Part shown: positions 26,695 to 43,452 of the stretch, one piece after another
Numbering within the stretch: position 1 is the stretch's first letter
Layout: every line of letters starts with the position of its first letter
DNA from: Herbaspirillum hiltneri N3
GTDB taxonomy: Bacteria > Pseudomonadota > Gammaproteobacteria > Burkholderiales > Burkholderiaceae_D
Assembly (NCBI RefSeq): GCF_001267925.1
Contig: NZ_CP011409.1
Location: forward strand, 4,340,001 to 4,404,000
Length of the DNA stretch: 64,000 nt
Direction: 5' to 3'
Translations under genes and position numbers: made by a program
The notes under the pieces: model-generated
Databases searched by the model: none
What the model was told of the DNA's origin: nothing
The model's input: the letters and a program-made list of their open reading frames with translations, nothing else

Positions 26695-27312
26695 GTGACC
26701 AACTTGAACCGGTTTAAGTGTCTAGCTCAGACCGGATTCCGTGTCCAAGATTTACTGTCGCCTGCAATTTACAAATCCAATTGCCAAGGACTTCCCGATT
26801 CAACTCGTAAAACGTTTCAAAATATCAAGGAGGGAAAGCTGGTTGGGCTTCCTGAAACAATTGAGGAAACGTTTAAGCGGGCCGATTGGTACTGGGAATT
26901 ACTGTATCTCCGCGACGCCTTGACACATAGTAATGTAGGTATGTGCAGAGCATCATCTGATTCTGGTTTGATCAGCTATTCACATAGTGGAATTTTGCAA
27001 CAAGGAGAAGAATTTCAGGTTGCAGACATTTTCGAGCGAATGGATTTTTTTGACGAAAAAGTAAATAACTTCTTAGAAGAAATATTTCACTATCTTTATT
27101 CGCAGCTTAAGCAAAATCCTGTAATGCAAGTATGTGGAATTTTTGGAGGGAGGATCTACCACCGACAGGTAGCGCCGGAACCAAATTTAGATTTTCACAG
27201 TGGTGTGTGTGGAACCGTTGAATACGAAAATTCTGTCGGGGGGCGAAGATGCCCCTTTGCGGACGAGTGTGGTGCGTTCACGCGCGCACAATCGGACACC
27301 GTGACACCATGA
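26695..27312 (+). CDS. HEPN-like protein (Rx4H motif)
   Basis: A frame of 205 codons from a GTG. A mostly helical region includes WYWELLYLRDALTHSNVGMC, in which Arg-x4-His is the ribonuclease signature of HEPN domains (compare the Cthe_2314-like HEPN group). A second helix-rich part follows (IFERMDFFDEKVNNFLEEIF). The last 45 residues have several Cys. HEPN proteins often act as RNases in toxin-antitoxin or abortive-infection systems. The start is uncertain and the N terminus may be truncated. It lies 43 bases before the acetyltransferase-like gene, so the two may be co-transcribed. Confidence 0.45.
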   Translation: MTNLNRFKCLAQTGFRVQDLLSPAIYKSNCQGLPDSTRKTFQNIKEGKLVGLPETIEETFKRADWYWELLYLRDALTHSNVGMCRASSDSGLISYSHSGILQQGEEFQVADIFERMDFFDEKVNNFLEEIFHYLYSQLKQNPVMQVCGIFGGRIYHRQVAPEPNLDFHSGVCGTVEYENSVGGRRCPFADECGAFTRAQSDTVTP

Positions 27313-27355
27313 CGATAGTGTTATCGCATTAGATCATCAGTATTGGAAAACATAT

Positions 27356-28552: not shown

Positions 28553-29546
28553 ATACGTTTTCTTTTACAGAGTCGAAAATACGATCAAGGAACTTGTAGC
28601 TAAAAAGAACAGAAATCCACAAAAGCCAGTTAACCAGCACTTCGTGCCAGTAACTTATCAAGAGCGATTTCGCGGAAAAGATGGCGCTCTGTGGGCTTAT
28701 ATCTTTAAGCTCGGCCGTATTGTTAATGATGCCCAGCCTCGCAAAATGGGATGGATTTCGGACCTTTACACTTTGCCGAATGAACAAGGCGCCCCTGACT
28801 ATCAGGTGGAGCACTTCTTCACTGTTGTGGAGGAAATGTCTACACCTGCGATAAAACGGGTACTGAATGGAGATGAGATAACTGAGGAGGATCGGTTCTG
28901 GCTGTGCTTCTTTTGGGGCGCGGCATTCTGTCGCTCTTATGACATGATCCGCTCTTATCAGGCTCTTTTTGCGGATCTCCATAAACAGGAACTTCGAAGC
29001 CAGGTTTCATCGCTCGAAGCGGCAAAGCGTCTGCTCGAGGATGGTCCTAATGACGATGGGCTTACAGCGGAAGAGCTATTTACATACGTGCATTCCGACG
29101 AATACGAAATTGAGTACGGATCACACTCTGTACTGCCAGCTGTTTTAAGGCTGATGCCGATGATTTGTCATTTTTTATGGCAGTCCCGTATCACCATTCT
29201 GCTGGCGCCGGAAGGTGAGCCATTCGTAACAGGTGACAGCCCAGTGGTACTTTTTCCGACACATAAACGTGGCCAAACTGGCTTCAAACTATCCACTCGA
29301 GCCATGCCTCTTAGCTCCGACGTGTGTCTTATTTCTACCCCCAGAATGTCCGGAGTGGAAAAGCACATGGCTCCTGAGGAACAAGTCCGTGCCATAAACC
29401 TACTGATTGCTTCTTCAGCTCACCAATTCATCCTGGGCAGTAGCAAGGATTTAATCTCAAGCCTTGCTACTGCGACAAATGCAGGTCAGAGAGTTTGGAA
29501 ATCTTTGTTTCAGGTCTCTGAAGATATGGGCATTCGGCCTCGTTGA
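28542..29546 (+). CDS. DUF4238 family protein
   Basis: Start chosen at the ATG at 28542, five bases after GGAGGGG and within the end of the preceding gene; this gives 334 residues beginning MDDRYVFFYR. The family signature is visible: KPVNQHFVPVTYQERFRG near the N terminus (the conserved QHxVPxxYLRxF region) and EPFVTGDSPVVLFP in the middle. DUF4238 proteins are often found in defence islands and are suspected nucleases or effectors, but no activity is established. Translational overlap ties it to the ESCO-like gene. Confidence 0.75.
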   Translation: MDDRYVFFYRVENTIKELVAKKNRNPQKPVNQHFVPVTYQERFRGKDGALWAYIFKLGRIVNDAQPRKMGWISDLYTLPNEQGAPDYQVEHFFTVVEEMSTPAIKRVLNGDEITEEDRFWLCFFWGAAFCRSYDMIRSYQALFADLHKQELRSQVSSLEAAKRLLEDGPNDDGLTAEELFTYVHSDEYEIEYGSHSVLPAVLRLMPMICHFLWQSRITILLAPEGEPFVTGDSPVVLFPTHKRGQTGFKLSTRAMPLSSDVCLISTPRMSGVEKHMAPEEQVRAINLLIASSAHQFILGSSKDLISSLATATNAGQRVWKSLFQVSEDMGIRPR

Positions 29547-29650
29547 GGGAAATGCGTATGGCTATGCCTCTATACTATCGGCAATCTCCACTGCATCGTG
29601 GCAAAGTCTTGCTGCTATTGTCTTTCTAGGATTTTTTGCGACAATCTTAG

Positions 29651-29821
29651 CTATCGTCCCGAGACAACCCACGCTGCAAATATTACTGGCGGGACTAACC
29701 ATCCAATCACGCGCGCCGCGAACTCGCCGACATTCAATTTTTCGCTTAAAACAATATAAAAAAACAGGCCGGCGAAAAACCATATTGGAATTGCCGACAA
29801 CCAAATCAGTATCTTCAGCAC
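29651..29821 (-). CDS. Small two-segment membrane protein
   Basis: I choose the GTG at 29821, 8 bases after a strong GGAGGAGG ribosome site; an upstream TTG would add 8 residues. The 56-residue product has two hydrophobic stretches (about 2-24 and 36-54) separated by a short charged loop (LSEKLNVGEF). It is the last gene of a three-gene operon headed by an ADP-ribosyltransferase-like gene. It may be an immunity or membrane-targeting partner, which is inference. Confidence 0.55.
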   Translation of the reverse strand: MLKILIWLSAIPIWFFAGLFFYIVLSEKLNVGEFAARVIGWLVPPVIFAAWVVSGR

Positions 29822-29841
29822 AGAGAGTTCCTCCTCCGTAT

Positions 29842-30027
29842 TCAATTGGCTTTACCATTGCATTCTGCTTCAGTGTGCCAGCCCGTCCGGTCAGCAACTT
29901 CGCACTCTAACTCGGTTTTCCCTGTCCACCTGTCGCTTCGAATTGCCCCATTCCCGGAGAACTCGTACCGAAACAGGACCGCAATGATAACAGTTGCAAA
30001 TACGATGGCACCCGCCAATAGTTTCAC
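29842..30027 (-). CDS. Small single-pass membrane protein
   Basis: GTG start at 30027, six bases after GAGGGGG. The 61-residue product has one membrane segment (VKLLAGAIVFATVIIAVLF) and a hydrophilic tail with two Cys (LECEVADRTGWHTEAEC) that could form a disulphide outside the membrane. It lies between the ADP-ribosyltransferase-like gene and a second tiny membrane protein, with 29- and 20-base gaps. Unknown function. Confidence 0.5.
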   Translation of the reverse strand: MKLLAGAIVFATVIIAVLFRYEFSGNGAIRSDRWTGKTELECEVADRTGWHTEAECNGKAN

Positions 30028-30056
30028 GGAATTCCCCCTCATCTACCCAACGTCAT

Positions 30057-30521
30057 TCAAGGATGCTGCAAGAGCCTCTTTGCGACAACGCTCCCGTCAC
30101 TTGTAACCTCGTACTTGTCCACCAAGACTGAATCCGGAAGCGCTTGACCATCAAGCGGGATCAGAGTTACCTCTTGTTCCTGTGGCTCGGCGGCGTCTTT
30201 GAATTCCCACGCAGCTATATTAGCGTCAGCGAGTTTTTCTTCGTCAATTACGTACACAAATCCATCTTCGACGCCATCGCCCGTTGCGAACCGGATAGCA
30301 ACTTTCTCAGAGCGCGACGTGGAAACTCCACATCCCCCGTAAAGACCTGTATTCAACTGGTGCGCGCGAGCAGTATTGGACTGCGCCGGCCCAGCAACTA
30401 TGGTTCCATCCATCTTCCACCGCCCGTCGTACTGCGCCATAACTTCGACGAGTGTACCCTTCGGAAGTAACTTCCCGTCGTTCGCAGCGTCAGTCTTTTT
30501 GTCCACTCCACGGTAAAGCAT
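30057..30521 (-). CDS. Mono-ADP-ribosyltransferase-like protein
   Basis: A 154-residue protein with the three marks of R-S-E class ADP-ribosyltransferases. There is an N-terminal Arg in MLYRGVD, a Ser-Thr-Ser strand in GCGVSTSRSEKVAIRFA, and a late Glu-x-Glu in PQEQEVTLIP. The segment FVYVIDEEKLADANIAAWEF also fits the cholera/pertussis toxin fold. It lacks a signal peptide and is about the size of the bare catalytic domain. It may modify a host or phage protein or RNA. Ribosome site AAGGAAGAG directly precedes ATG. It heads the operon with two small membrane proteins. Confidence 0.65.
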   Translation of the reverse strand: MLYRGVDKKTDAANDGKLLPKGTLVEVMAQYDGRWKMDGTIVAGPAQSNTARAHQLNTGLYGGCGVSTSRSEKVAIRFATGDGVEDGFVYVIDEEKLADANIAAWEFKDAAEPQEQEVTLIPLDGQALPDSVLVDKYEVTSDGSVVAKRLLQHP

Positions 30522-30585
30522 CTCTTCCTTTATTTGTTGAGTTGTTACTGGTGAATTGTATCGAGTTTAAGGTCATATTATTGAA

Positions 30586-30779
30586 TGCAGTTGGATAGCA
30601 AAATAGGCGAGGCTGAGGGGGCGCGTCTGATTTGCAATTCGCTGGCGATGTTAGCTGCAAATCAGTGGCGCATTAGAAATGCAATTGGATGAAGCATTTG
30701 GCATGTAAAAAGATGGTGCGATTGAAGTGCTACTTAGTGGCGCGGTTATAACGCAATTGACTGGCGCGGCAGCTGCACA
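30586..30779. repeat. Array of eight 23-24 bp direct repeats
   Basis: Units start at 30586, 30610, 30633, 30656, 30680, 30704, 30728 and 30752, almost exactly 24 bases apart. The shared core is TGCAAnTnnnTGGCGC; units 30633, 30656, 30728 and 30752 fit best, 30610 only in its TGGCGCG-like half. The array ends GCACA at 30779, so on the minus strand it opens with TGTGCAG, like the TGT ends of Tn7-like, Mu-like and IS21-type elements whose transposases bind spaced sites. No matching transposase lies next to it. It is an orphan end or a regulator-binding array. Confidence 0.7.
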
Positions 30780-31365
30780 TATTCACAATAACGGACTTCT
30801 GACGCTTCGTTCTGTCCAGTTAGCCGTCGCGCTGCCCAGCTCGTTCCGGTTTGAGTGTCCTACTCAAACTGAACTGAGTGTCCACGAGCCGCTGAAATAT
30901 GCAGACTCATGCCTTTACACCTCAACGGCTCTTTACGAATGGCTCAAGAGAGTTCGTGTTTGGCGGGTTATTTTTATCGTTGTGCCGATCATTGCCGGGA
31001 CATTCGCCAGCGCTCGTATCTTGGTCCGGGACCCCGCATACGACTGGTTAATCGCAATTAGCGCCATGGTGGCCGGACTGTTTCCTGCGATATTTAAGGC
31101 ATTGGAACTCGACATTAGTTTGAAAACGATTGCCGATAGTGCCCACCGTTTTAAAGTACTTCAAGATAGGTTTCGGCAGGCCGCAAAGATTAAAGCTAAC
31201 GATTCGTTCGATACTCTGGAAGAGGAGTTTCATGCCCTCATGGATCGAATGGATGACGCGCGCACTTCCAGTCCTCCTGTTCCAGATGGATATTTCAAGA
31301 AAGCTCAGAAGAAGATTAAGTCAGGAGCTTATGATTTCGACCTAGATGGAAACGTGCCCAAATAA
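30727..31365 (+). CDS. SLATT-like two-membrane-segment effector
   Basis: The frame opens with GTG inside the repeat array, but the recognisable domain begins only near codon 58 (KYADSCLYTSTALYEWLKRV), so the start is uncertain and the gene may be 5'-truncated. Two membrane helices (VWRVIFIVVPIIAGTFASA and YDWLIAISAMVAGLFPAIF) are followed by a cytosolic helix DSAHRFKVLQDRFRQAAKI. This is the layout of SLATT domains, predicted pore-forming effectors of nucleotide-signalling defence systems. No cyclase or SLOG sensor gene is adjacent. Confidence 0.55.
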   Translation: MLLSGAVITQLTGAAAAHIHNNGLLTLRSVQLAVALPSSFRFECPTQTELSVHEPLKYADSCLYTSTALYEWLKRVRVWRVIFIVVPIIAGTFASARILVRDPAYDWLIAISAMVAGLFPAIFKALELDISLKTIADSAHRFKVLQDRFRQAAKIKANDSFDTLEEEFHALMDRMDDARTSSPPVPDGYFKKAQKKIKSGAYDFDLDGNVPK

Positions 31366-31380
31366 AGCGCGGGTGTTCAT

Positions 31381-31632
31381 TCAGGGTGAAAAGCGCTTAA
31401 GCAGATAGCGTTCGGAACCGACGGGTGGATCAAAGCGTGAACTTAGTACAGGTTTAGTTTTGCGACTACGCATCCGCCTGACTTGCTCTTCCGCTGCAAG
31501 CGCTCGCTCGCGATGCTGATGGGCATCGCGCAACAACATTGCTACCTTATGCCAGTAGACGGCTCCAAGGTCACCGTCTTCTAATTCCATCTGACGTAAC
31601 TTCTCAAAAGCGATATTCAAGTCAATATCCAT
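31381..31632 (-). CDS. Hypothetical protein, 83 residues
   Basis: A short helical, charged protein (MDIDLNIAFEKLRQMELEDG start; Arg-rich second half with a likely coiled segment HQHRERALAAEEQVRRMRSR). It lies 64 bases downstream of another unknown gene in the same direction and ends 15 bases from the SLATT-like gene's stop. No family recognised. Confidence 0.45.
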   Translation of the reverse strand: MDIDLNIAFEKLRQMELEDGDLGAVYWHKVAMLLRDAHQHRERALAAEEQVRRMRSRKTKPVLSSRFDPPVGSERYLLKRFSP

Positions 31633-31696
31633 AGTGACCCCGATTAGCTTGATGGCAGCTATCTTCGAGCTGGAAGTACCTCATGCGGCCTCTTTT

Positions 31697-32146
31697 CTAT
31701 AAATAGACGTCTAAGCTCTCAACCACGGAAAGTAGGCGTTTTATGCGCTCTTGGCTCGTTTGCACCATGTACCTTCTTTGGCATTCATCGACAAACTCCC
31801 GTGTTTCATACGGCATGCCGGCGAGAACCTCCGCCGGCGACAATTCGTTGAGTTCATCGCATGCAACGGTCCAAAATACATGTATCTCGGCTCCCGGCTT
31901 TTCAGAAAAATAGGGCAAGATTTTTCTGATCAAGTAAGGCACTGGCCAAATAAATTGCCAAACAGGGAAGTCGGAGATGACATCCGCGCCGTGTTTTTGT
32001 ATCCCATATAAGCAATGAGCTTCGAGCGCGCCTAGGACGTCAGCATTGCTTCCCTGATTCTGCATACGCAAAATTAACTCACTAACAGCCCATCTTGAAA
32101 CAGGAAGTGTAGTGCGCACCTCTGGCGCTACGTATGGAATGCTCAT
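31697..32146 (-). CDS. Hypothetical protein, 149 residues
   Basis: An ATG-started frame giving MSIPYVAPEVRTTLPVSRWA, then a mixed helical body rich in aromatic residues (FPVWQFIWPVPYLIRKILPYF) and a C-terminal helix (SQERIKRLLSVVESLDVYL). It contains LNELSPAEVLAGM, which faintly recalls antitoxin-type helices, but I cannot assign a family. It is probably co-transcribed with the 83-residue gene downstream. Confidence 0.45.
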   Translation of the reverse strand: MSIPYVAPEVRTTLPVSRWAVSELILRMQNQGSNADVLGALEAHCLYGIQKHGADVISDFPVWQFIWPVPYLIRKILPYFSEKPGAEIHVFWTVACDELNELSPAEVLAGMPYETREFVDECQRRYMVQTSQERIKRLLSVVESLDVYL

Positions 32147-32283
32147 AGGAAGACCACGCTAGTAAACGCCTATTTCAGGTGCGGCCCCGATTACCCGCTG
32201 AAGGCATTCTGAATGCAAACTAGCCCAAAAGCCGACGCTGCAGGAAGGGCCATCGCCTCAAGCCAGAAACCGAAGCTGGCATT

Positions 32284-32660
32284 CTATTTCCAGAAGCGCT
32301 TATACAGTTTATAGGCGATGAAACCCCAAAATACAACGGAGCCGATTCCCGTAAGAACCTCCGTTATATCTTTGCTTTTAAATAGCTGCGCGACGAGCCC
32401 TACCGCAAAGATACTGCCGACGATCAACGTCACCAACCAGCCAAAGAAGCTCAGTTGGCCTCCCGTTTGATACATCACCCCACCACAGAAGGGACATAGA
32501 TGTTGCGTCGCCATGTACCGCAAAGCGCCAAGACCGGACGATAGTGCCATAGTTTTGGCGTGCATTGCCGACGGCAATGGGGGCATTCAATCTTATCCAA
32601 TGGAAATTCCCTTGTGATGGCGCCCTGAGATGGGTCGACAGACAATGCGCCCCTGCGCAT
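32284..32660 (-). pseudogene. Zinc-ribbon membrane protein gene with a frameshift
   Basis: Two frames together make one plausible protein. The first gives LDKIECPHCRRQCTPKLWHY and the second, after about 32520, gives RYMATQHLCPFCGG and two membrane segments ending KLYKRFWK. The two CxxC pairs would make a zinc ribbon. Loss of one G (TGGCGG read as TGCGG) explains the shift and would restore ALWRYMATQ. A shorter product could still start at ATG 32514 (76 residues). A sequencing error is an alternative. Confidence 0.5.
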
Positions 32661-32733
32661 GCTGGCAATTTCAAAGCAAAATGGGTCGTAAATACCGTGG
32701 TCGTTATTGCATTATAGAACGACGATATACGGC

Positions 32734-32979
32734 ATGCCAAGAGCCTCTTCTAAAGTCGATATCAATGGAGATCTCGTCGCCCTCGGAGCGGCGGTACGAC
32801 TTCATCGGAAGAATATTGGCCTCTCCCAGGAAGCACTCGCAGATCTCGCAAAGATTGATCGAAGTCACATGGGTAAAATTGAACGAGGTGAGCGCAATGT
32901 CAGCGTATTGAATGTCCTTCGCATTGCGCATGCACTGAACACCACATTGGCACAGCTGAGTCAGAGCGCCGACCTCTGA
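32734..32979 (+). CDS. XRE-family DNA-binding regulator
   Basis: Start taken at the ATG giving MPRASSKVDINGDL; an upstream TTG is possible. The 81-residue protein is essentially one helix-turn-helix domain: GAAVRLHRKNIGLSQEALAD, then KIDRSHMGKIERGERNVSV. It is the size of a phage- or plasmid-type repressor. The long untranslated stretch after it holds two inverted repeats that could be its operators. It might control the downstream 64-residue protein and peptidase genes. Confidence 0.8.
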   Translation: MPRASSKVDINGDLVALGAAVRLHRKNIGLSQEALADLAKIDRSHMGKIERGERNVSVLNVLRIAHALNTTLAQLSQSADL

Positions 32980-33335
32980 CAAGAATTCCTCGCCACCTAT
33001 AGCCAAAAAGTCCTCGATAGATAATATCTATTAAATTCTTCCGCGCTCAATTTGCGCTCGAACTCGTCGCTGTTTAAAAGCCACTTATGCGCAGACAACG
33101 TAGAAACAGAGTACAAAAAAGAGCATAAATTTATTTGTCATCTCGAGAACTATTAAGCTATATTGAATTTACGCAACGTAAAAAGCGTTGTGTAACAAGG
33201 GGATAGCCGTTGTAGCTGACGTTATCGTATATAATTTTCAGCTTAATTTTTGAACTCGATCCAATAAGGGTCAGTCGAAATTACTGTCGATACGCTATCG
33301 ACGACGACTAAAATGGTATGTCAGGAGAAAGAGTC
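32980..33335. other. AT-rich intergenic stretch with inverted repeats and a -10 element
   Basis: 356 bases without a gene. It contains an imperfect 10-base inverted repeat (33169-33178 with 33186-33195), a perfect TATAAT at 33230-33235 and the perfect inverted repeat at 33286-33302. It has the look of a regulated promoter region for the gene at 33336. Confidence 0.5.
33286..33302. promoter_or_regulatory. Perfect inverted repeat, candidate operator
   Basis: GTCGATA-CGC-TATCGAC, seven matched bases on each side of a three-base centre. It lies 51 bases downstream of a TATAAT and 34 bases upstream of the 64-residue gene's start. Its size suits a dimeric regulator such as the nearby XRE protein. 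Confidence 0.45.
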
Positions 33336-33530: not shown

Positions 33531-33546
33531 AATCGTTTTAATATGG

Positions 33547-33572
33547 AAGCCGCCTCATCAGGCGGCTTTTTT
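33547..33572 (+). terminator. Intrinsic terminator directly before the peptidase start
   Basis: An 8-base perfect stem (33547-33554 with 33561-33568), loop TCATCA, and six T ending at 33572. The ATG of the peptidase gene begins at the next base. Transcripts of the 64-residue gene should mostly end here, with read-through supplying the peptidase. Confidence 0.85.
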
Positions 33573-35159
33573 ATGGCTGATAGATTACAACTAAAAACAT
33601 TCGCCAACGCTGGGGACCTGGAACAACTCATCCGAGAACAACTGAAAGAGCTAACGAAACTTGGCGCTTTTAGGAGCGGGATGAATCATCTTCCAATGTT
33701 GAACTGCATCCAAACCTTGGTCGAAGCCAAAGCGACCACGATGCTTGTTCAGATGCGTGTTCCCGATCCTGATTTTCTAGCGGAGTTCGGCGCGTATTAC
33801 AGTCGTCAGTTTGCCGACGTCCCTCGTTTTTGCACGCGACTCCATTTTTTTGCGCAAAATGCAGCTGCTGACGAAGAAGTGCTCGTCTATCTGGACCGCG
33901 TATCCAAAGCTAGCTATTTGGGATTCCTGACGTTACGGCCAATCATTAAAAGTCCGATTGGTGCTTCTATTTTGGCTGCGAATACAGCGAACGGATTCAT
34001 TCGTTGTTTAGACGCCTTTCCAGTGCATATCGCCGGCGTGGAGTTCTCCGTCAGTGGTACACCATTCATGCAACAAGACAACGCTGTGGGCGCATGCGCA
34101 CAAGCGTCTATTTGGATGGCATTGCGAACACTGCGCAAGAGAGAAGGCGATCGCGCGTACGACCCAGCTCAAATTACGGATGCTGCGACGAAGTACTTCG
34201 TTCACGGGCGAATTAGACCAAATCGCAACGGTCTGACTCAACTGCAAATGATCGAAGCGATTCGCGCTGCAGGCTATTCACCTCATACGATCCAGCTGTC
34301 GCACGGTGCCAACGATCAAGAACCAATGGACCAGTTGGCCATCGATACCGCGTCAAAAATCGTCCATGCCTATATCGAATCTGAAATACCGGTTGTGCTA
34401 ATTTTGTTTCCTCCTTCAGGAGGGCACGCTGTTGTCGCAATCGGCCACAAATGGGATGAGGCGAGGGCAGCTAACGTTAGAACGACCATCACCCTTCCGA
34501 GCGGACTAGCTTTGTCCTGCGCTCATGCCGCGAGTTGGGTGCCTGCGTTGCTGATCCACAATGACAATACCGGCCCGTACCGCGACTTTGAAGCTTCCGC
34601 CGGTGCCGTCGCAGAATATTCTTTCAAGTACGCTGCGTACGCGATTCCACTTCTGCCTGTTGATGTCTTTATGACAGGCGAAGAGGCTATTACAATCGCC
34701 ACCAGTTTTTTTGGCGAGATTCTACAAGGATTTAAGAGCGAGAATTTACTCGATGATGCTGGACTTACTGCATTGACGGCAAGTCTCGCGGTACGACTGC
34801 TATTGGTGGAAAAAAGGAAATTGCGTCGGTGGGCAGCCACGGAACACATGGTTCCAGAACTGCGCGACAAGATTCGCTTGATGGAAATGCCTAAACGCGT
34901 CTGGATGCTAGAGATACATCAGGTTGCGCAATACGGTGCTCAAACGAAAGCGAATACGCCAGAAAGCCTGGTCGGGATTGTTCTCATTGACCCCACTGCA
35001 GACATTCCGGTGTCGTCCTGCCTGCTAATTCATTTAAATTTGCCGGCGCTCGTTGGACTTCCTCACGGCATTGTCCTAACTTGGAATCGCGAGGAGGGAG
35101 CCCCTTTTCAAGCGCTACAAACAGCCGATCAGGGCCCCACTCGGCCAATAAGAACATAG
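33573..35159 (+). CDS. Papain/C39-like cysteine peptidase
   Basis: I take ATG 33573, giving MADRLQLKTF and 528 residues; an ATG at 33543 would place the terminator stem inside the gene. A central papain-like domain has Gln-Gln-Asp then Cys175 in FMQQDNAVGACAQASIWMAL, His285 in SGGHAVVAIGH and Asp331 in LLIHNDNTGPY. These fit a Cys-His-Asp triad of C39-like peptidases. The N-terminal 160 residues and C-terminal 190 are unrecognised. No leader-peptide transporter is adjacent, so it is more likely a cytosolic protease in a defence or toxin pair with the 64-residue protein. It ends 98 bases from the convergent tniQ. Confidence 0.6.
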   Translation: MADRLQLKTFANAGDLEQLIREQLKELTKLGAFRSGMNHLPMLNCIQTLVEAKATTMLVQMRVPDPDFLAEFGAYYSRQFADVPRFCTRLHFFAQNAAADEEVLVYLDRVSKASYLGFLTLRPIIKSPIGASILAANTANGFIRCLDAFPVHIAGVEFSVSGTPFMQQDNAVGACAQASIWMALRTLRKREGDRAYDPAQITDAATKYFVHGRIRPNRNGLTQLQMIEAIRAAGYSPHTIQLSHGANDQEPMDQLAIDTASKIVHAYIESEIPVVLILFPPSGGHAVVAIGHKWDEARAANVRTTITLPSGLALSCAHAASWVPALLIHNDNTGPYRDFEASAGAVAEYSFKYAAYAIPLLPVDVFMTGEEAITIATSFFGEILQGFKSENLLDDAGLTALTASLAVRLLLVEKRKLRRWAATEHMVPELRDKIRLMEMPKRVWMLEIHQVAQYGAQTKANTPESLVGIVLIDPTADIPVSSCLLIHLNLPALVGLPHGIVLTWNREEGAPFQALQTADQGPTRPIRT

Positions 35160-35257: not shown

Positions 35258-36607
35258 TCAAGTAGGCTCCACAAATCCATGCACCACCAGATATTGGTAG
35301 TACACCTTGGCTAGCTCAGGGCGTGCTAGTGCCAAGCCATGTTGCTTCAGAAATTTGTCCACGACGCGACGAAATGGAGGCACACGATGCACCGCTAAGC
35401 TACCGAGAACAGACTCCAGGACGCCGCGCCGATAATCGATGGCGATAGAAGCCGTCATCTTCTTCTGCTTCCGATAGCGTTCGCTTATTTGTCCGCACAC
35501 TTCTGGAAACCAATATTTCAACGCGCTGCGCCGCAATCGTACGCGCCGACCTAGTTCGTTAACCGTTTTCGCGGAATTGTGATGCAGCTCTGTCGTGAGA
35601 AGGTCAAATACCTCATCCCAGTTTGTATGCCTCAAAAAAGGCCTAGGCGCCCGGCAAACACGCGAACGCATCCGCGCTCCACACTGCGTCGCCGGCCGGT
35701 AGAAAAAATCGAGATTCTGAGAACATAAATCGAAGACATCGACCCCGCATGCGATCGCTAACGCAAGCAAACTGGGGAGCGACGGCTTATGTCCTTTTGA
35801 AAGCCATGCATTAGCCGTCCAATTGTCCCATCCCATCTGGCGGCAAAATAACGCTTTGTTATCTTGCGCATGTACCGCGATGGCAGTACGAACATTGCTG
35901 CAAAAATACTCAAGTGAGACCTTGGCCGGAGACTGAGAGTTTCGCGCCATGGATTCTAGGGCCAACTCTACGTCGACATTGACAGGAAGAGTGTCTGCAC
36001 AGACGACGTCAGATAGTGAGCGTCCACAATAGCCACAACGACCAATATTTGGAAAAGAGGAGATAAACGGTTGGTGCCTACTGCAACCTGGGCAGCGCTC
36101 TAACAACTGAACGAAGTGTTTGGTGCAAGTTTGATACAGCCGGAGTGACCAAGACAGAGGTGCAAATGTCGAGACACCCTTTATCCTCTGTTCCAAATAA
36201 CAAATAGGGCACCATCGAGGATAACGAGCCAAGATGCCTTCACCATTTTTAGGCAAAACTGGCATCCACTTCAAGAGTGTCAAATCCTGCAGGTCGTCTC
36301 TTGAAGTCAGCTGATTGATGGTCTCGGAAAATATCCTGGCATATTTTCCGAGACCATCGATCGGCCCGGCATCTTTCACAAAAAAACGATTAGATAAGAT
36401 CGACGCCAATTCGGGTACTTCATCGGCAAGGACTTTTTTCATCAGCCGACGAGGACTCACCATGTGCTCACGAGAGAGCCGTAGAAAATAGGATCGGAGC
36501 CCCTCGGGAACGCCATCCTCAGTTCTCATGAATTCGAGCCTAAAGAGCCTGCTCCGACTCTCCCGAAATGATCGTATATCATCATCCCATGGTAGTTCCT
36601 CATACAT
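35258..36607 (-). CDS. tniQ: TniQ/TnsD-like target-selection protein
   Basis: A 449-residue TniQ-family protein. The N-terminal TniQ domain includes GLRSYFLRLSREHMVSPRRL. A zinc-binding region follows: RYPRWCPICYLEQR, then LERCPGCSRHQ and GRCGYCGRSL, i.e. three Cys-x2-Cys pairs with His. The C-terminal half holds helix-turn-helix-like segments (GWDNWTANAWLSKGHKPSLP; VNELGRRVRLRRSALKYWF). It is longer than the minimal TniQ of CRISPR-associated transposons and nearer to TnsD, so it may bind DNA itself. It overlaps tnsC by 8 bases and should bridge target and TnsC. Confidence 0.88.
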   Translation of the reverse strand: MYEELPWDDDIRSFRESRSRLFRLEFMRTEDGVPEGLRSYFLRLSREHMVSPRRLMKKVLADEVPELASILSNRFFVKDAGPIDGLGKYARIFSETINQLTSRDDLQDLTLLKWMPVLPKNGEGILARYPRWCPICYLEQRIKGVSTFAPLSWSLRLYQTCTKHFVQLLERCPGCSRHQPFISSFPNIGRCGYCGRSLSDVVCADTLPVNVDVELALESMARNSQSPAKVSLEYFCSNVRTAIAVHAQDNKALFCRQMGWDNWTANAWLSKGHKPSLPSLLALAIACGVDVFDLCSQNLDFFYRPATQCGARMRSRVCRAPRPFLRHTNWDEVFDLLTTELHHNSAKTVNELGRRVRLRRSALKYWFPEVCGQISERYRKQKKMTASIAIDYRRGVLESVLGSLAVHRVPPFRRVVDKFLKQHGLALARPELAKVYYQYLVVHGFVEPT

Positions 36608-37760
36608 GGTTCTGCGCTCCTACTGGATCGCGGTGCGGCTTACGAATCCCGATTCTTCCTTTCGTTTTCTTAGGTGAAACAGCTTTGGGAGACTGCGACG
36701 CAGGCATCTTTTCAGCGGTGCCGAGCAATTCAGCGATATCTTCAATGGGAATGTCCGACAACGCGGCTTCTCCATTCGTTGCTTCGATAATCAACCGTCT
36801 CAGAGCCTTATTGGGCAGCGCCCAAGCCTTCAAACGATCCAAATCGAAGATGGGCGCCTCACTTCGAGATCGGTCGACCTCACTGAGTTCTTCGTACTCG
36901 CTCAAATCTTGAAAATATGCTTTTAAGGCCTTATCCAGCCAGGGCTTAAGAATTCCCACGCAGCCGAGCGAGCGGTTGTAGATATCTAACAATGTGGTCA
37001 GGTCATCGACACAAATGGTGCAGGGAACTGGGAGTTTCGTCAAAAGTTGTCGTAAGGTGTCTTGAAACCAGCCCAGTTGCTCAGCATTTCGCGCGTCGTA
37101 ACGGGGGAAGTGAATGATATTGCTTCGACGGACCAACTGACCGCTCATGTCCCGAATATGAAGCAGTTCGTATGTACCAACAAGGACGACAGTAGTGTTA
37201 GTCAACGTAGCAAAAGATTTGATGGTGTCGAACATGTGTGTACGTTGCAATTCATCCTTGAGCATGTGATGCGCCTCATCAATGAATACAACTCTGGCGT
37301 TTCTATGCTTCAAGCAATTTTCCAGAGATTTGCGCAAAACGCTGACATTTTGACTGCCACGATATTCTTGCTTGGGAAGCTTGCTGAATAATTCACCCTG
37401 CGTAAAAGCAGCAATTTTCTCGTCAACCAAAGGCTCGCCGGTCGCTATCATGAGTCTGACTAGGAAATCATGCCAGTCAAATACCTTTTTAGGGTTGGCC
37501 ACCGCCTCTACAAGCACAGCAGGAATGATGTCACGGCGGCCTTCGAGGTCCGACATATTCTGAAGAATGAATTCCGAATACAGCTTCTGCGCCATTGTTG
37601 ACTTTCCTGCCCCAGATGGCCCAGTGACGATGACAATGCCGGAGCCGCTCTCACACTCTAGCGCGGCAAGGACATCGCTGTGAGCACGATACAAAAATGG
37701 ATGATCAGTACGGTAATGGTAGTAGGCCGTATAGATCTCTTGATATTTTTTATTGATCAT
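36600..37760 (-). CDS. tnsC: TnsC-like AAA+ transposition ATPase
   Basis: A 386-residue regulator of transposase. Walker A is GPSGAGKST (Gly47-Thr55), Walker B is RVVFIDEAHHM, and sensor 1 is VVLVGTYELL. It belongs to the TniB/TnsC group (AAA_22-like) which senses ATP, assembles on target DNA and activates TnsB. The C-terminal 60 residues are Lys/Arg/Pro-rich (SPKKTKGRIGIRKPHRDPVG), possibly the TnsAB-contact tail. Start ATG overlaps the tnsAB stop by 4 bases (ATGA), indicating coupled translation. Confidence 0.92.
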   Translation of the reverse strand: MINKKYQEIYTAYYHYRTDHPFLYRAHSDVLAALECESGSGIVIVTGPSGAGKSTMAQKLYSEFILQNMSDLEGRRDIIPAVLVEAVANPKKVFDWHDFLVRLMIATGEPLVDEKIAAFTQGELFSKLPKQEYRGSQNVSVLRKSLENCLKHRNARVVFIDEAHHMLKDELQRTHMFDTIKSFATLTNTTVVLVGTYELLHIRDMSGQLVRRSNIIHFPRYDARNAEQLGWFQDTLRQLLTKLPVPCTICVDDLTTLLDIYNRSLGCVGILKPWLDKALKAYFQDLSEYEELSEVDRSRSEAPIFDLDRLKAWALPNKALRRLIIEATNGEAALSDIPIEDIAELLGTAEKMPASQSPKAVSPKKTKGRIGIRKPHRDPVGAQNHV

Positions 37761-40456
37761 TTGTATTCCCGAAATTGAAATTTACTCAGTTTTTTAGGCG
37801 AAACGGTTGTACCTCCAAGGAGCGCTGGAATTATCTGCACCTGTTGTGACGGGATTTGATTCTCCGGCTCACCAGCGACAGGTTCAGTATCGTTATGCTC
37901 TTCGAGGTCGATAGACTTATTCAGCTCCGCGTCGCGTTTTTGCTGTTTGAGAATGTTTTCCTTCTCAAACGTCTGCTGCAAATAGCGGCCATAGTCAGGT
38001 AACGTTTCTTTGAGCTTCTTCCCTTTCTGGCGATACTTTGCGTTGTACTCATCGGTGATGAGGGCAATTTCCTTCTCCGTGCGACCCTTCAAATGACCGG
38101 CCATCGGAGTCTCGCATCGGCGCCAACGCCGGTTTACATAGGCATAGACATAGGAAAGATCAAACGGGTCGTACCGCACTAAGAAACGTTTTCCTTCTAA
38201 TTCCGGCGCCTGAAGCTCGTTGGAAAAGTAATGAAACGGGCCGACCTTCAGTCCGCGTCCGGGTATCAGAGTGATCTGCGAATTGCCATAGCTAGGGAGA
38301 AACAGCACGCGAGATTCTTCATACGAAACATACTTCCATGCACGGGAGCCTCCCATTTTCTTACTATGCTCCATTGCCTGTTGGGGAGTGGTGCCCAGAG
38401 CGGAATGGTTCAAAGTTGGATAAACCTCGTAGATGTATTTATCGAGCTCTTCCGTCAGTACGGGGAGGTTCCATATCGCGTGTTTTCGAGGGTCATGAGA
38501 ACGAGACACGCCACGAGGCTTCTTGAGGCGCTTGCTTGTTCCAGTAAGTTGGTGCGTAAAGTCCTTATCCACGACACCGAAAGCTGCTTCAATGACAGAT
38601 CCATTACGGCTTTGGCCCGCCGGGCGCTCGCGCTTAGTGATTTCGAGTCGGGCGAGAAGCTGCTCCCAGTAAGCGCTTAAGAATTCGCTACCCGCATCCG
38701 ATACGATGGTCCGAGGGACCCGGTGATGACGCCGAACACACTCTCTCATCAACAGCATCAATGTCCGATAGCTGGGCGCATCGTAGGTCAGCACAAACGC
38801 TAAGATAACTCTCGTATAGGCATCAATGAGGAGCGACAACCATGGTCGGCCAAGATTGCCGCCATGGAGACTGTCAATTAGATGCACGTCCATCTTCGTG
38901 TGATCTATATGTGCAACTTCAAGAAAACGCTCTCCATGTGGCGGAGAGGTTCTATCAAGGAACCACACAAACTCTTTCTGTATGTATGCCGCTTTCTCAC
39001 CTTGACTTCCAAGCGTCTGGTCATACGCCTTAACGCGATTTTTTAGTTCTCGCCGCAATGCCTTCACGCTAGGTATCAATAGTCCCTTTTCCGTGCAAAC
39101 AGCGGCGAGCATTGCGTGAATAGCATTAACAGATATATCTTCTGTCTTCCAGACCTCGGCCATCTTCCCAATTTCGTCCAATACCGCCGGCACTAGCCTG
39201 CGCGTACGATTCCCTCGTGACTTTGCGCGGTCGATGAGTAAGATATATTCGCAGCCATATAACTCTTTCGATTTGCGTGCACGAGCTTCCCAAGTACGTC
39301 GAATACGGGGACAAGGTTTTTTTCCAGTGACGGAAAAAATTCTTTCAGGCTCCTTCAGGCACTGAAGGCGCTCCAAGGCATCTTCGATTTCTTTCGGATG
39401 TGCGCCATTGCAAATTGTAGCCGCCTCAGCTCGTGCCGTCTCTTCCGGCTCACCGGATTTGATATCACCTATTGCGATGAGTCTTTCAAGATCATCGATG
39501 GGCAAGAAGATAGCTCTGTCGTCTGGTCCTTTGAGGCAGCGATTATCATCGCCTGCCTCGACTATTTCATAGATTTTGTTTTTCCATTTCAGTCGGCTCC
39601 CCACTGCGAGGGTGATCACTGGCGACTGATATATTTCCGCATCTTGTGTAAGCGCTATCTTTTTCCGAAAGGAATATGCCTTAGCTTCCGCAATTTCCAG
39701 GAATATTTTCGTACTACTGTGCTCTGATAAATGCTCCTCCTCCGCCAAGAAATGCAGCTGTTCATCCGCCAGCATTTTGTAGATGATGTCGGCGGTGCCA
39801 TCTCCACCCCGACCAATTAGATTTCCCAGGGTAAGGAAAGGCGCGCCTTCAAATAACTTCCGGATCTCTTTTTGTTCGACCAGTCCGATAGCGGCGCAAC
39901 CCACCCTCCAATAGTCTTCAAGAAACACGGTATTGTTAAGTTGAGCCGATGAAAAAGAGCATTCTGTAAATACTTCAAATTGGAGTCCAAGGCTCTTTGC
40001 ATATTGCGAGCCGGGTACGTGCAGCCATTGATTTTTCTCAAAGATAAATGTGGTCTTTCCGTTCGCCACCTCTCCCTCTAGGAATTCGGTCTTTTTGCAT
40101 TCAACCCAACCAATAAAATCCTTTGCCAATACAAAGAAGTCCGGGGTGTAGCCGTAACCAGTCACCTGTCCAAGCGTCGTTTTAGTATTCAATCTCAATT
40201 GAGGTGGTTGATCATAGTATTCGTAGACATCGTCATCGTGCTCCCATAAAGTCACCGCAGTTAGCTCCAACGAGCGACTCTCAGCTTGGATGACTTGTCC
40301 CATTTTTCTGCTGGCATAGCGACTATTGACGCTCTTTGGCGAACTCTGAGTTCGCCGCGATGGGTCACTGCCGCGTATGTTCGCCACCACTGCCCTGGCT
40401 TCTGGTGTAAGCCCCAGGTCATTCATCAATTTTTCTAGTTGTTCGTTGGTGAGCAT
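37757..40456 (-). CDS. tnsAB: TnsA-TnsB fusion transposase
   Basis: Start set at the ATG preceded by TGGAGAATACAT, giving MLTNEQLEKLMNDL and 899 residues; the frame is open 44 codons further. Residues 50-150 are a TnsA-type restriction-like nuclease with Glu59/Glu64, Asp106 in YGYTPDFFV and Glu119-x-Lys121 in WVECKKTE. A helix-turn-helix region follows. The DDE integrase core has Asp518 (HIDHTKMD), Asp587 (IVSDAGSEF) and Glu623 (NGSVIEAAFG), a 35-residue spacing. One protein thus carries both 5'-end and 3'-end cleavage activities, implying cut-and-paste transposition. All catalytic residues are intact. Confidence 0.93.
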   Translation of the reverse strand: MLTNEQLEKLMNDLGLTPEARAVVANIRGSDPSRRTQSSPKSVNSRYASRKMGQVIQAESRSLELTAVTLWEHDDDVYEYYDQPPQLRLNTKTTLGQVTGYGYTPDFFVLAKDFIGWVECKKTEFLEGEVANGKTTFIFEKNQWLHVPGSQYAKSLGLQFEVFTECSFSSAQLNNTVFLEDYWRVGCAAIGLVEQKEIRKLFEGAPFLTLGNLIGRGGDGTADIIYKMLADEQLHFLAEEEHLSEHSSTKIFLEIAEAKAYSFRKKIALTQDAEIYQSPVITLAVGSRLKWKNKIYEIVEAGDDNRCLKGPDDRAIFLPIDDLERLIAIGDIKSGEPEETARAEAATICNGAHPKEIEDALERLQCLKEPERIFSVTGKKPCPRIRRTWEARARKSKELYGCEYILLIDRAKSRGNRTRRLVPAVLDEIGKMAEVWKTEDISVNAIHAMLAAVCTEKGLLIPSVKALRRELKNRVKAYDQTLGSQGEKAAYIQKEFVWFLDRTSPPHGERFLEVAHIDHTKMDVHLIDSLHGGNLGRPWLSLLIDAYTRVILAFVLTYDAPSYRTLMLLMRECVRRHHRVPRTIVSDAGSEFLSAYWEQLLARLEITKRERPAGQSRNGSVIEAAFGVVDKDFTHQLTGTSKRLKKPRGVSRSHDPRKHAIWNLPVLTEELDKYIYEVYPTLNHSALGTTPQQAMEHSKKMGGSRAWKYVSYEESRVLFLPSYGNSQITLIPGRGLKVGPFHYFSNELQAPELEGKRFLVRYDPFDLSYVYAYVNRRWRRCETPMAGHLKGRTEKEIALITDEYNAKYRQKGKKLKETLPDYGRYLQQTFEKENILKQQKRDAELNKSIDLEEHNDTEPVAGEPENQIPSQQVQIIPALLGGTTVSPKKLSKFQFREYK

Positions 40457-40888
40457 ATGTATTCTCCAGCGAGATAGCAGCCGAAATACTTTCTTTGAAT
40501 GCCCCATTTCGGAATGGTAGATTTCTCGAACAAACATCTCCCCGGCTGCTCTTGACTGACAAGAGCAGGTAAGCAATGATGAAACCATTCGTCGATTTGA
40601 ATTGCTTCACATTGACTCACGACGGGGACGTCGGGAGTTACTTCCTTATTGGGCGTTCATTTAAGTGTTACGCGCTAATCCCTCTCAAATCTTTCACTGT
40701 CATTCCGCTTTACAAGGTCGAGCACCTGGGTGCCGGCTTGCCTTCAAATTGCGAGCAGCTCATTTGCGTCTGCTGTTACTGCAACTCTTGAGTACACGTT
40801 ACCCGAGAGCTTTCAGATTTCAAGAGCATGTCTTAGCAAGACCCAGAATCTTAGTTTTATGCGCAAATACCTGTTTTGAAAGGTTTTT
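40457..40888. other. Divergent intergenic region of the transposition genes
   Basis: 432 bases between the divergent starts of tnsAB and the 293-residue gene. It must hold both promoters. I see AT-rich patches near 40830-40880 and a 7-base inverted pair CTCTTGA/TCAAGAG about 30 bases apart around 40786-40830, but no clear paired -35/-10. No convincing gene. Confidence 0.45.
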
Positions 40889-41770
40889 ATGACAACAGGG
40901 AGACCTTTGCGTAATCGATTTGAAAAAACAAGAACAAAATTTTGGACTGCGGTCGTCTATAAAGAGATTGCAGAAAGAGGGCTAGGGATAGACGAGGTGT
41001 TAGGTACCGATGGGAAGTGGAACAACATTTGGTCGCGATATCACCGTGGCCTAGTGGCACCATCCAAAGCCCGCCTTATGCGTATTGACAAGGCATTGCC
41101 TGGTACGAAGAGCTATTATTCAGCCCCCCTTTGGAGCCTGTGGACACGAGACCAATGGTCTTGGGCGAACTTGCTACGGAGCAGATACGATCTACCGCCT
41201 ATATTCCAACAGGCATTTGATTTAGAAGATGAGTTGCGCGAGGCCGACCGTATCAGGCTCAAAAAAAAGCCAGGTCCAACATCAGTCAATGACATCTGGT
41301 ATTCAAATTTCTTTGCTGGCAACCTGTTGACAAAGTCGTTTGCTATGATCCAAGACCGGCGGATCGGCATTGGCGCTCTGTCAGCCATACTGATGATGCT
41401 TTATGAAAGCAAGCTGCGAGGAGATGTAGTCGCTTACTTCTGCCTATCGGCTGCATGGGCCCAAGCCGAGAGAGAACGGCACAAGCATCCGTTTTTACAT
41501 CTGTTGCCCTTGACCGTCTTCAATGCCCCCCTAACTGAATTTCATTCCGTTGAATGGCCGGATGTTTTGGCACCTCTTGATATTTCAAAAAATCTTGCTA
41601 GGCAACAGCAAGAAACGAGCACCAGCTCCAAGGATTTTGATGTGCTTCGTTTTCTTCAACAGATCTACGCGCCGAATTTTGTAGCGATTTGTGCCGACTT
41701 CTTGACCAAACAAGAGGAGGTAGACGTGCTCAATCCAAAAGTTGGATATTGGCCGCCCGACATATTGTGA
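40889..41770 (+). CDS. Unknown protein of the transposition module, 293 residues
   Basis: Starts ATGACAACAGGG with a weak ribosome site AAGG. The N-terminal 80 residues are basic and may form a helix-turn-helix (KWNNIWSRYHRGLVAPSKAR, compare XRE-like binding to a free-standing site); the rest is helical with one hydrophobic stretch (IGALSAILMMLYESKL). It opens the divergent operon that ends with the inactive recombinase, so it is probably part of target choice or regulation. I recognise no family. An analogue of TnsE or another accessory targeting factor is conceivable but unproven. Confidence 0.6.
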   Translation: MTTGRPLRNRFEKTRTKFWTAVVYKEIAERGLGIDEVLGTDGKWNNIWSRYHRGLVAPSKARLMRIDKALPGTKSYYSAPLWSLWTRDQWSWANLLRSRYDLPPIFQQAFDLEDELREADRIRLKKKPGPTSVNDIWYSNFFAGNLLTKSFAMIQDRRIGIGALSAILMMLYESKLRGDVVAYFCLSAAWAQAERERHKHPFLHLLPLTVFNAPLTEFHSVEWPDVLAPLDISKNLARQQQETSTSSKDFDVLRFLQQIYAPNFVAICADFLTKQEEVDVLNPKVGYWPPDIL

Positions 41771-41844
41771 AGCGGACTGCACGCAGACCTCTTGATTTCC
41801 AAAGTTCACATGTAAAACTGTCCTTATCTACCAAGGAGAGTGAC

Positions 41845-42228
41845 ATGACATCAATCAACTCTAACCAGCTTGCGGCCATCAAATTAATCGATGTGGAAGC
41901 CTTCGATATCTCCACCGCAACATCATTGAAAGTAACAAGAACATGCCTGCGGACTCGATTGAAAGAGATATGCGAAATAAAGCGGAGTAGCAACGCCACA
42001 ATCAAAATAACTTTCACGGATTACGCCAAGATGAAGTTCTGGTGCGAGTTAGATTTGAAGACCAAGGAGATGATCTTGGTGGAGTGGGATAGTGGCGACG
42101 AACAATTGAATTTCTTACTTCTGGAAGGGATCACCAATAGCTGCCTCAATCTGTTGAATGCGACCGTGGCAACCAAAGGAACTTCAATCCATCGGACGCT
42201 CACAAAAAAATTACCTTCGTGCATTTAA
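41845..42228 (+). CDS. Unknown protein of the transposition module, 127 residues
   Basis: The ATG follows AAGGAGAG by four bases; the frame is open upstream over the end of the preceding gene but without a good site. The product begins MTSINSNQLAAIKLIDVEAF and has mixed helix and strand with several Thr/Lys-rich strands (SNATIKITFTDYAKMKFWCE). No family recognised. It lies between the 293-residue gene and the inactive recombinase, all in one direction with gaps of 74 and 46 bases. Confidence 0.55.
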   Translation: MTSINSNQLAAIKLIDVEAFDISTATSLKVTRTCLRTRLKEICEIKRSSNATIKITFTDYAKMKFWCELDLKTKEMILVEWDSGDEQLNFLLLEGITNSCLNLLNATVATKGTSIHRTLTKKLPSCI

Positions 42229-42274
42229 AAATCTACGATATTATTAATATGGTAGATATTTATACGAATGCATC

Positions 42275-43279
42275 ATGCAAATCTCAGCCACTGATGGAAA
42301 GGCAATCACGGCCATTAATGAATGGCTTACCGCCTATCGTTCTGAGAATACGCGTAACACATACCATCGCGAATTCAAGCGTCTGTCGTCCTGGCTTTGG
42401 GCTGTAAAAACGAGTTTTACAGAGATCGACAGCGATGATCTTTCTCGTTATTTGACCGACTTCGCCCTGGGCAAATTGGATCTTGATCTAAACAGGCAGC
42501 AACAAAAAAAACGAAGCACTGTCACTCAGGCAAGAAATGTATTATGCCGTCTCTTTGAAAATCTCCGCAGGGAAGGCATCAGGGCTGACAACCCCATGGA
42601 TGCAGTACCGGATGTTCTAGTCGACGAGGGAACTCCTTCCACGGCCATCGCCTCGGCCCAAGAACGGGCAAATTGGCACCAGTCTTACAACACTTGGCTA
42701 AACTCACCGGCACCTGAATTTGGAATGCGAGCGAACAGTGAGCGCAGCAACGCTTTAGCGGTATTCGTCTATTGGACTTCGCTACAACGATCTGAGCTCG
42801 CGAAAGCAAAGATGGTTGACATAAGGTCAGATGGGGGGAATCAATGGTTTATTTGGGTAGAAAACACTCAGAAATCGAAACGGACGAAGGTATTGATTCC
42901 AACTTCAGCAATGAAGGCTATACAACGCTATCGCATCTCACGCGGATTACCTGAAATACCTGGGGATCACGAAACAGATGTCCCGCTCTTTGCTCGAAAA
43001 AATACGGAACGCGCCTTAGACCCGTGGACAATTGCTCACATTCTAAAAAGTGATGCTCCGGAAATGCTCGAGGGTGTTCGATATATGCAAACTTCGATAT
43101 CAAAATTGCGAAAAGCTTTTGTCGCGGACGGAGTATTACATGGCGTACCGCAATTTGAAATTGGACAACATATTCGGTCACACCATGTTGTCCGGCATGT
43201 TGCTGCACAGGTCAGCACGGACAGCTTCGGAGAAAGCATTGGTAAAATGCAAACAGCTCTGACCGGAGCGTTACCGTAG
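42275..43279 (+). CDS. Inactivated tyrosine recombinase, TnsF-like target selector
   Basis: A 334-residue protein with the two-domain layout of XerC/D recombinases: an N-terminal SAM-like core-binding part (ENTRNTYHREFKRLSSWLWA) and a C-terminal catalytic fold. Arg172 (SLQRSEL) and the beta-hairpin Lys (KSKRTK, 200-205) are kept. The HxxR box reads SKLR (Ser276, Arg279) and the LGH region reads IGQHIRSHH. After Tyr270 there is no tyrosine at all, so the nucleophile is missing. Catalytic loss with retained fold matches TnsF of Tn6022-like transposons, which binds the target for TniQ/TnsC. It ends 71 bases from the transposon terminus, facing tRNA-Arg. Confidence 0.85.
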   Translation: MQISATDGKAITAINEWLTAYRSENTRNTYHREFKRLSSWLWAVKTSFTEIDSDDLSRYLTDFALGKLDLDLNRQQQKKRSTVTQARNVLCRLFENLRREGIRADNPMDAVPDVLVDEGTPSTAIASAQERANWHQSYNTWLNSPAPEFGMRANSERSNALAVFVYWTSLQRSELAKAKMVDIRSDGGNQWFIWVENTQKSKRTKVLIPTSAMKAIQRYRISRGLPEIPGDHETDVPLFARKNTERALDPWTIAHILKSDAPEMLEGVRYMQTSISKLRKAFVADGVLHGVPQFEIGQHIRSHHVVRHVAAQVSTDSFGESIGKMQTALTGALP

Positions 43280-43302
43280 ATGAGAGACACATCCAATTGA
43301 TT

Positions 43303-43350
43303 GGGATGCATATGCATGCCAAACGGCATAATTATGATTCCCAAACCACA
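43303..43350. repeat. Candidate right terminus with two 22-bp spaced TnsB-type sites
   Basis: Reading inward on the minus strand from 43350, the end is TGTGGTTTGGGAATC. A unit TTTGGnAnnnATAnnnATnCC occurs at offset 6 and again at offset 28, a 22-base period; both units are nearly palindromic in their centre. Tn7-like ends start TGT and carry 22-base TnsB sites in this way. The five bases outside, GAGGG (43351-43355), would be the target duplication. Confidence 0.65.
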
Positions 43351-43376
43351 GAGGGGGAAACGGGGGACTGCAAATC

Positions 43377-43452
43377 TGGTGCGGCTGGCGGGGATCGAAC
43401 CCACGACCCTTGGCTTCGGAGGCCAATACTCTATCCACTGAGCTACAGCCGC
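43377..43452 (-). tRNA. tRNA-Arg (anticodon CCG)
   Basis: On the minus strand the 7-base acceptor stem GCGGCTG pairs with CAGCCGC. The anticodon arm is TTGGC-CTCCGAA-GCCAA with anticodon CCG, and the T arm is GTGGG-TTCGATC-CCCGC. The discriminator is A and CCA is encoded (43377-43379). It is 76 bases with CCA. Its 3' end faces the island 26 bases away, so it is intact and is the likely landmark for insertion. Confidence 0.97.

Follow-up and report, generated by a model that had tools for sequence, protein, structure and literature searches.

A Tn7-like transposon of the fused-TnsAB subfamily beside tRNA-Arg in Herbaspirillum hiltneri, with TniQ as the most likely target selector and a dead tyrosine recombinase as a likely regulator

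How does a transposon find a tRNA gene, and does a catalytically dead recombinase encoded at its end take part in the choice? This question is raised by a Tn7-like element of Herbaspirillum hiltneri N3, which was analyzed in a window of 64,000 nucleotides (NZ_CP011409.1, positions 4,340,001 to 4,404,000; window coordinates are used unless a genome is named, and G and L numbers are our handles for genomes and loci). The element carries a fused TnsAB, TnsC, a long TniQ and a divergent gene for a protein with a tyrosine-recombinase fold (YR), the last gene before the end that faces tRNA-Arg(CCG) and 69 bp from that end. An original prediction from the DNA alone had proposed that YR is a selector of the TnsF type that aims the element at the tRNA gene. 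The results described below make it very probable that the element is a fused-TnsAB transposon of the cut-and-paste kind whose relatives include the homing module of the CRISPR-associated transposon (CAST) PmcCAST, that its tRNA-Arg target is read by TniQ, and that YR is not the selector and likely a repeat-binding regulator.

A family scan covered 392 genomes and a class scan 369. Besides the window, the family scan yielded eight full-length TnsAB loci in seven genomes (G240, G269, G379, G151, G099, G127 and, twice, G100; in one G100 locus there is a stop inside the match, yet a frame of 895 aa is open). All eight end 26-30 nt from the 3' end of a tRNA gene, which is tRNA-Arg in G269, G240 and G379 and tRNA-Ala or tRNA-Ser in the other five. 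The prediction that a tRNA gene is the target was thereby borne out. The question had been raised whether relatives always lie within about 30 bp of tRNA-Arg(CCG); these eight do lie that close to a tRNA gene, but tRNA-Arg is not the only one used. A tRNA-cytochrome query matched in all 34 genomes of the genus, weakly in G327. The 3' flanks of 20 intact tRNA-Arg genes were read (19 from the genus and family plus that of G379; L092 was dropped, its stretch ending before the tRNA), revealing a transposon end in 8 and none in 12. Together with two tRNA-Arg fragments (G026 and G216), three tRNA-Ser and two tRNA-Ala genes this gave 15 right ends, each of them 21-30 nt from the 3' end of the tRNA or tRNA fragment; where the second end was not known, the distance from the last site served to fix the end position. 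Six elements have 5-bp duplications on both sides (window, CTCTG; G240, a 77-kb element, CTATT; G379, AGTTT; G173, CGGTT; G099, CGTGC; G127, TGCTT). That the tRNA gene is the target of this transposon family is thus well supported by the positions of its ends. In G173 the same tRNA-Arg site holds a 12-kb element (L036:4626-16595) that has both of its ends and whose YR gene is truncated; no TnsAB, TnsC or TniQ match was found in it.

The ends of the relatives have in common a 17-bp site close to GGCAAAGTTATGGTTCC, present as an inverted pair on the tRNA side, and the window element closes in CA, 7 nt past the last such site. An end at 43350 had been predicted; it does lie beside tRNA-Arg, but the exact base is 43348, as set by the 5-bp duplication matched at the other end. 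Neither repeat search nor motif scan revealed a left end within the window, because a rearrangement (Table 1) had cut the element. What led to the left end was G152, the genome that came closest in the locus search: its site is empty and contiguous across the insertion point. The DNA of G152 past the tRNA resumes at C1:816248 of the H. hiltneri genome (G000), far from the window, and the left end of the window transposon is at G000 C1:812446, followed by CTCTG and about 1.4 Mb away if the chromosome is circular. For the remainder of that G152 region this genome has just one match, of 51 bp. Two similar left ends precede 816248, closing at 812446 and at 816247, and the duplications of the presumed older tandem element (ATCTC and CCCTC) no longer agree. 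Apparently two elements stood in tandem at the tRNA, the older one between 812.45 and 816.25 kb, and the younger one, that of the window, was later split.

The proteins of the element agree with this assignment to the Tn7-like group. The best solved structures were 9bw1_M for TnsAB (E 1.7e-156) and 8fcu_Q for TnsC (E 2.4e-46), and a profile of nine TniQ relatives matched the TnsD of 8v32_J/9bw1 with an E of 2.7e-70 over profile positions 14-422 of 449. We take entries 9bw1, 8fcu and 8v32 to be the TnsABCD transpososome of PmcCAST. The role of TniQ was analyzed by dividing the identity of each of its halves by the TnsAB identity in the 36 pairs formed by nine elements, 10 at the same and 26 at different tRNAs. 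For the C-terminal half the ratio averaged 0.89 in same-tRNA pairs (0.74-1.05) against 0.62 in different-tRNA pairs (0.54-0.74), and for the N-terminal half 1.02 against 0.93. The selector is most likely TniQ/TnsD, and TniQ would read the tRNA gene.

Ends, duplication, spacing, orientation and homology were read directly from the DNA, and a mechanism can be proposed from them. The C-terminal half of TniQ, a TnsD, would bind the gene for tRNA-Arg(CCG) in its 3' part and there recruit TnsC; TnsAB would then join the right end about 28 nt past the tRNA 3' end in one orientation, an insertion expected to yield the 5-bp duplication and to leave the tRNA intact. Several points weigh against this interpretation. 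For 9 of the 15 ends neither a second end nor a duplication is known, and the search for them failed in three of the five tRNA-Ala/-Ser elements (both of G100, and G151). In G657, whose near-full-length TnsAB (27% identity) was the only addition from the class scan, there was no tRNA in the 19.9 kb read. The left-end TnsB-type sites of the window copy score weakly, and this copy, split by a rearrangement, may be immobile. Phylogeny in part confounds the divergence of TniQ with target, and size alone does not reveal whether a TniQ depends on a partner or, as a TnsD, binds DNA itself (PMC10293859).

The sequence of YR indicated how far it has departed from an active recombinase. Its Pfam matches, two SAM-like N-terminal and one phage integrase, were all below cut-off, the SAM-like domain starting at residue 21-22; its profile aligned with active integrases with a probability of 99.7. 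Outside the N-terminal domain the AlphaFold model was of poor quality; its mean pLDDT was 62, and it was not used. Alignment with intact integrases confirmed that no tyrosine follows residue 270 and that the His of HxxR is replaced by Ser276, as had been predicted. Both Arg172 and Arg279 had been taken for retained catalytic residues; Arg279 is indeed kept, but Arg172 is not Arg I, the aligned position being Gln171, so that this residue is lost too.

YR matched in 10 of the 392 family-scan genomes (E<=1e-5), five of them in its clade by strength and five weakly; at the same threshold no match was found in the seven genomes of the eight TnsAB relatives. The clade has intact members in G000, G219, G144 and G252; that of G173 is truncated. 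In a tree with 16 chosen homologues from outside, the four intact proteins grouped together with 100/100 support, the branches being long. Integrases of about 390 aa from the class and order were tried as members of the dead clade and rejected: 57 of the 58 fetched loci keep the R..E / HxxR / H...Y signature, and these proteins therefore served as outgroup only. The exception, L185, keeps HxxR and has no Tyr at that place. A named-genome search with the YR alignment (two short patterns) gave two loci, both copies of loci already in the set. Plasmid searches gave 2 weak matches to YR and 24 to the L033 relative, all below 60% identity, and in the two plasmid matches that were read (H3 and H4) there was no ietAS match. 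Large replicons of Paraburkholderia and Cupriavidus (L144 and L145) have integrase-like open reading frames (ORFs) beside ORFs that are TniQ-like by eye, possibly another recombinase-TniQ pairing.

In the three other intact relatives found, those of G219, G144 (by eye) and G252, the YR gene is the third gene after an AAA ATPase and a subtilase. PADLOC identified the G219 and G252 pairs as IetA (E 3.5e-71 and 2.2e-69) and IetS (E 2.6e-39 and 3.6e-39). Unlike these genes (loci L033, L034 and L035), the YR gene of the window does not follow ietA and ietS as a third gene: the window gave no match to IetA or IetS, and this genome none to IetS, the latter search having had no positive control. Among the matches listed in our literature searches no paper linked IetAS with a dead tyrosine recombinase, which does not show that the link is absent from print.

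What the window does share with these operons is an inverted repeat, ATCTACGATAT-N5-ATATGGTAGAT, which is the probable operator of YR. Inverted repeats laid out like a recombinase core site, their arms 11-12 bp long and their spacer 5-6 bp, also lie upstream of ietA in L033 and L034 and, weaker, in L035. In a leave-one-out scan the repeat ranked first in the window (25.75, the next place scoring 10.62), and it was first by far in L033 and L034 too; the four places of the window that scored best all lie away from the tRNA. The repeat core pattern, which was chosen after seeing the sites, occurs once in the 64 kb against 0.02 expected. Since YR is common to the four loci with the repeat, we infer that it binds the repeat and regulates transcription. 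Most likely it would do so as a dimer at the site before its own gene, which makes it probably an operator-binding regulator, orphaned in the window. That the role is shared with the IetAS-type operons is a reading towards which the evidence leans slightly. We give an even chance to the broader proposal that the clade, having lost Arg I together with the Tyr and the His of HxxR, kept core-site binding and became the regulator dedicated to the operators of IetAS-type defence operons that ride in Tn7-like elements, one copy now standing alone at the end of a tRNA-homing transposon, which it could still tune. Caution is called for on four counts: the clade has four intact members only, inverted repeats of such size are not rare (24 in the 64-kb window), the repeat of L035 came second in its own locus (10.56 against 10.81, leave-one-out), and the case for binding of YR to the repeat is that the four loci share this gene.

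Two of the operon loci have further repeats nearby. In G219 the ietA-ietS-YR operon (L033:9727-14800) lies directly behind a gene reading as glmS and is flanked by TGAGACA (9793) and TGTCTCA (14666 and 14735), the same heptamer being found also at 9021 and 19070; the locus, whose exact ends were not found, may be a small element that lacks tns genes and occupies the classic Tn7 site. In G144, three TTGTGTCAAAC repeats resembling a transposon end stand directly behind the YR gene (L034:5288-5420).

Could YR nevertheless be the selector, binding the tRNA-Arg gene and handing the target to TniQ, as originally predicted? It has a dead recombinase fold like TnsF, its gene is the closest to the end beside the target, and TnsF of Tn6022 sets a precedent (PMC10293859). 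Against this, the TnsAB relatives of G269, G240 and G379 occupy tRNA-Arg, and five further loci tRNA-Ala or -Ser, with no YR match; since relatives target tRNA genes without YR, it is probably not needed for targeting here. The TniQ of the window is long (449 aa) and TnsD-like, with the YR gene on the opposite strand, whereas TnsF has 498 aa to the 334 of YR, a zinc-finger N-terminal region and an operon shared with a short TniQ of 369 aa (PMC10293859). The likely binding motif of YR, moreover, occurs once in the window, directly before its own gene, and the YR clade is tied to IetAS-type operons. We therefore regard a selector role as very improbable. An origin of the YR gene as leftover cargo of an IetAS-YR cassette, without present function, is a possibility to be taken more seriously, though still an unlikely one. 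The missing IetA and IetS matches and the truncated relative in the G173 element are what such a relic would predict, but the YR frame is intact over 334 aa and the repeat before it resembles those of the operons.

The last explanation considered was that a site-specific integrase placed an island at the tRNA, with the tns genes as passengers. Fragments of 48-54 nt from the 3' part of tRNA-Arg are duplicated 8-9 kb from the intact gene in G026, G216 and G275 (L098, L099 and L100) and were probably left behind by islands of integrase type; beside the fragment of G026 and that of G216 there is a Tn7-like right end. For the window, on the other hand, the tRNA is intact and the end, of TnsB-site type, closes in CA, and its 5-bp duplication recurs at the other end. 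Placement by an integrase was rejected on the 5-bp duplications and the intact tRNA, and we consider it extremely improbable. Transposition by TnsAB to a tRNA gene read by TniQ, with YR as a regulator, is thus the interpretation that we prefer.

Table 1. Features of the transposon and its target in the window.
Feature	Position	Strand	Remarks
Rearrangement junction, left boundary of the transposon piece in the window	25742		inside a gene LysR-type by eye
TniQ/TnsD-like protein, most likely target selector, 449 aa	35258..36607	-	Pfam TniQ E 2.2e-12
TnsC AAA+ ATPase, 386 aa	36600..37760	-	AAA_22 and TniB matches; Walker A from Gly47
TnsAB fusion, 899 aa from likely start M45	37757..40456	-	longest ORF reaches 40588
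p293, divergent accessory gene	40889..41770	+	no Pfam match
p128, small ORF, 127 aa, doubtful coding status	41845..42228	+	codon-position G+C unusual
Inverted repeat, probable YR operator	42231..42257	.	directly before YR
YR, catalytically dead tyrosine-recombinase-fold protein, 334 aa	42275..43279	+	
Right end, two inverted TnsB-type sites	43304-43320 and 43325-43341		motif common to ends of relatives; putative TnsB binding
Last base of the transposon (CCAAACCA)	43348		28 nt from tRNA 3' end
Target site duplication CAGAG (other strand CTCTG)	43349..43353		repeated at G000 C1:812447-812451
tRNA-Arg(CCG), intact, predicted target	43377..43452	-	ARAGORN; Rfam tRNA 69.8 bits

The gene layout (Table 1) agreed with the original prediction as regards the positions of the TniQ, TnsC and TnsAB genes, which overlap in one minus-strand operon, and a motif check confirmed the start of the TnsC Walker A. 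In TnsAB the TnsA-like N-terminal and Mu-transpos_C domains scored above the Pfam cut-off and rve slightly under it. M45 (40456) is probably the true start, the conserved alignment beginning there; numbered from it, the predicted nuclease (D106, E119, K121) and transposase (D518, D587, E623) residues are correct and are unchanged across four aligned TnsAB proteins. The G+C content of the tns genes and YR is 48-50%, against 62 and 68% for the two chromosomal genes compared. By tblastn, p293 has relatives at 31-39% identity and is present in the four tRNA-Arg elements seen with TnsAB (window, G269, G240 and G379), with no match in the five tRNA-Ala/-Ser loci; p128 gave no Pfam match and none in related loci. 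The orientation of the core gene block differs among elements: in G379 and the Ala/Ser elements (L043/L044, L045, L047-L050) TniQ adjoins the end on the tRNA side, and in the window, G240 and G269 it stands on the far side from that end.

The cargo of the window (26695-33000) includes matches to a 2TM/SLATT effector (30727-31365), Pfam NarE (30057-30521), DUF4238 (28488-29546) and an XRE-type regulator (32707-32979), and a weak C39-like peptidase match was seen at 33543-35159. No cas gene turned up in general scans of the cargo in the window half of the element (10 ORFs by Pfam, 8 by PADLOC), no dedicated CRISPR search having been made. A second TnsA-like gene lies 49 kb past the window transposon (L002, G000 C1:4432365), perhaps in another Tn7-like element.

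The transposon itself is of a known kind, and the link of YR to IetAS is the newer part of these results. They add relatives of the PmcCAST core from bacteria of the Herbaspirillum type and from the family of these; the relatives home to tRNA genes, and no CRISPR genes were seen. The exact ends and three tRNA identities (Arg, Ala and Ser) open the specificity of TniQ/TnsD to domain-swap tests. They also indicate that a dead recombinase does not have to be a TnsF when it stands at the end of a transposon: YR traces to a clade of defence operons and has a candidate operator, and would, if the proposal is true, offer a simple case, open to testing, of a recombinase that became a regulator. Among the matches listed in the literature searches no paper joined two of the terms Tn7-like, tRNA-Arg and Herbaspirillum, from which absence from print does not follow.

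Compared with known systems, YR resembles TnsF of Tn6022, and Tsy, as an inactive protein of tyrosine-recombinase fold in a Tn7-like element, but TnsF has a short TniQ as partner, a zinc-finger N-terminal region of about 199 aa and comM as target (PMC10293859), whereas YR is shorter, has no such region and groups with IetAS-type operons. Those defence operons, recognized by PADLOC, resemble the window in the YR relatives that follow the AAA ATPase and subtilase and in the upstream repeat, and differ from it in the ietA and ietS genes themselves. CyCAST (type I-D) has TnsAB, TnsC and TnsD in common with the window and inserts 30-33 nt downstream of tRNA-Leu (PMC10293859), while the window element, with no CRISPR module seen, lies 28 nt from tRNA-Arg. 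In PmcCAST (type I-B2, Tn7744) the fused TnsAB, TnsC and long TnsD are all homologous to those of the window, and a tRNA gene is likewise the attachment site (PMC11406308); the window differs in its tRNA-Arg target and in an operon where no Cascade or second TniQ was seen. According to PMC11406308, the I-B2 and I-D CASTs descend from Tn7-like elements that had a fused TnsAB and a TnsD using different tRNA genes, and other non-CRISPR targeting systems of that group are unstudied. The combination of TnsAB with a tRNA-targeting TnsD is therefore not new, the literature (PMC11406308, PMC10293859) already describing it for the I-B2/I-D subfamily. With its TnsAB fusion that keeps the catalytic residues, its TnsC and TniQ/TnsD in the operon, TnsB-type ends with a 5-bp duplication and fixed distance from the tRNA, the H. 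hiltneri element has the features of that fused-TnsAB subfamily.

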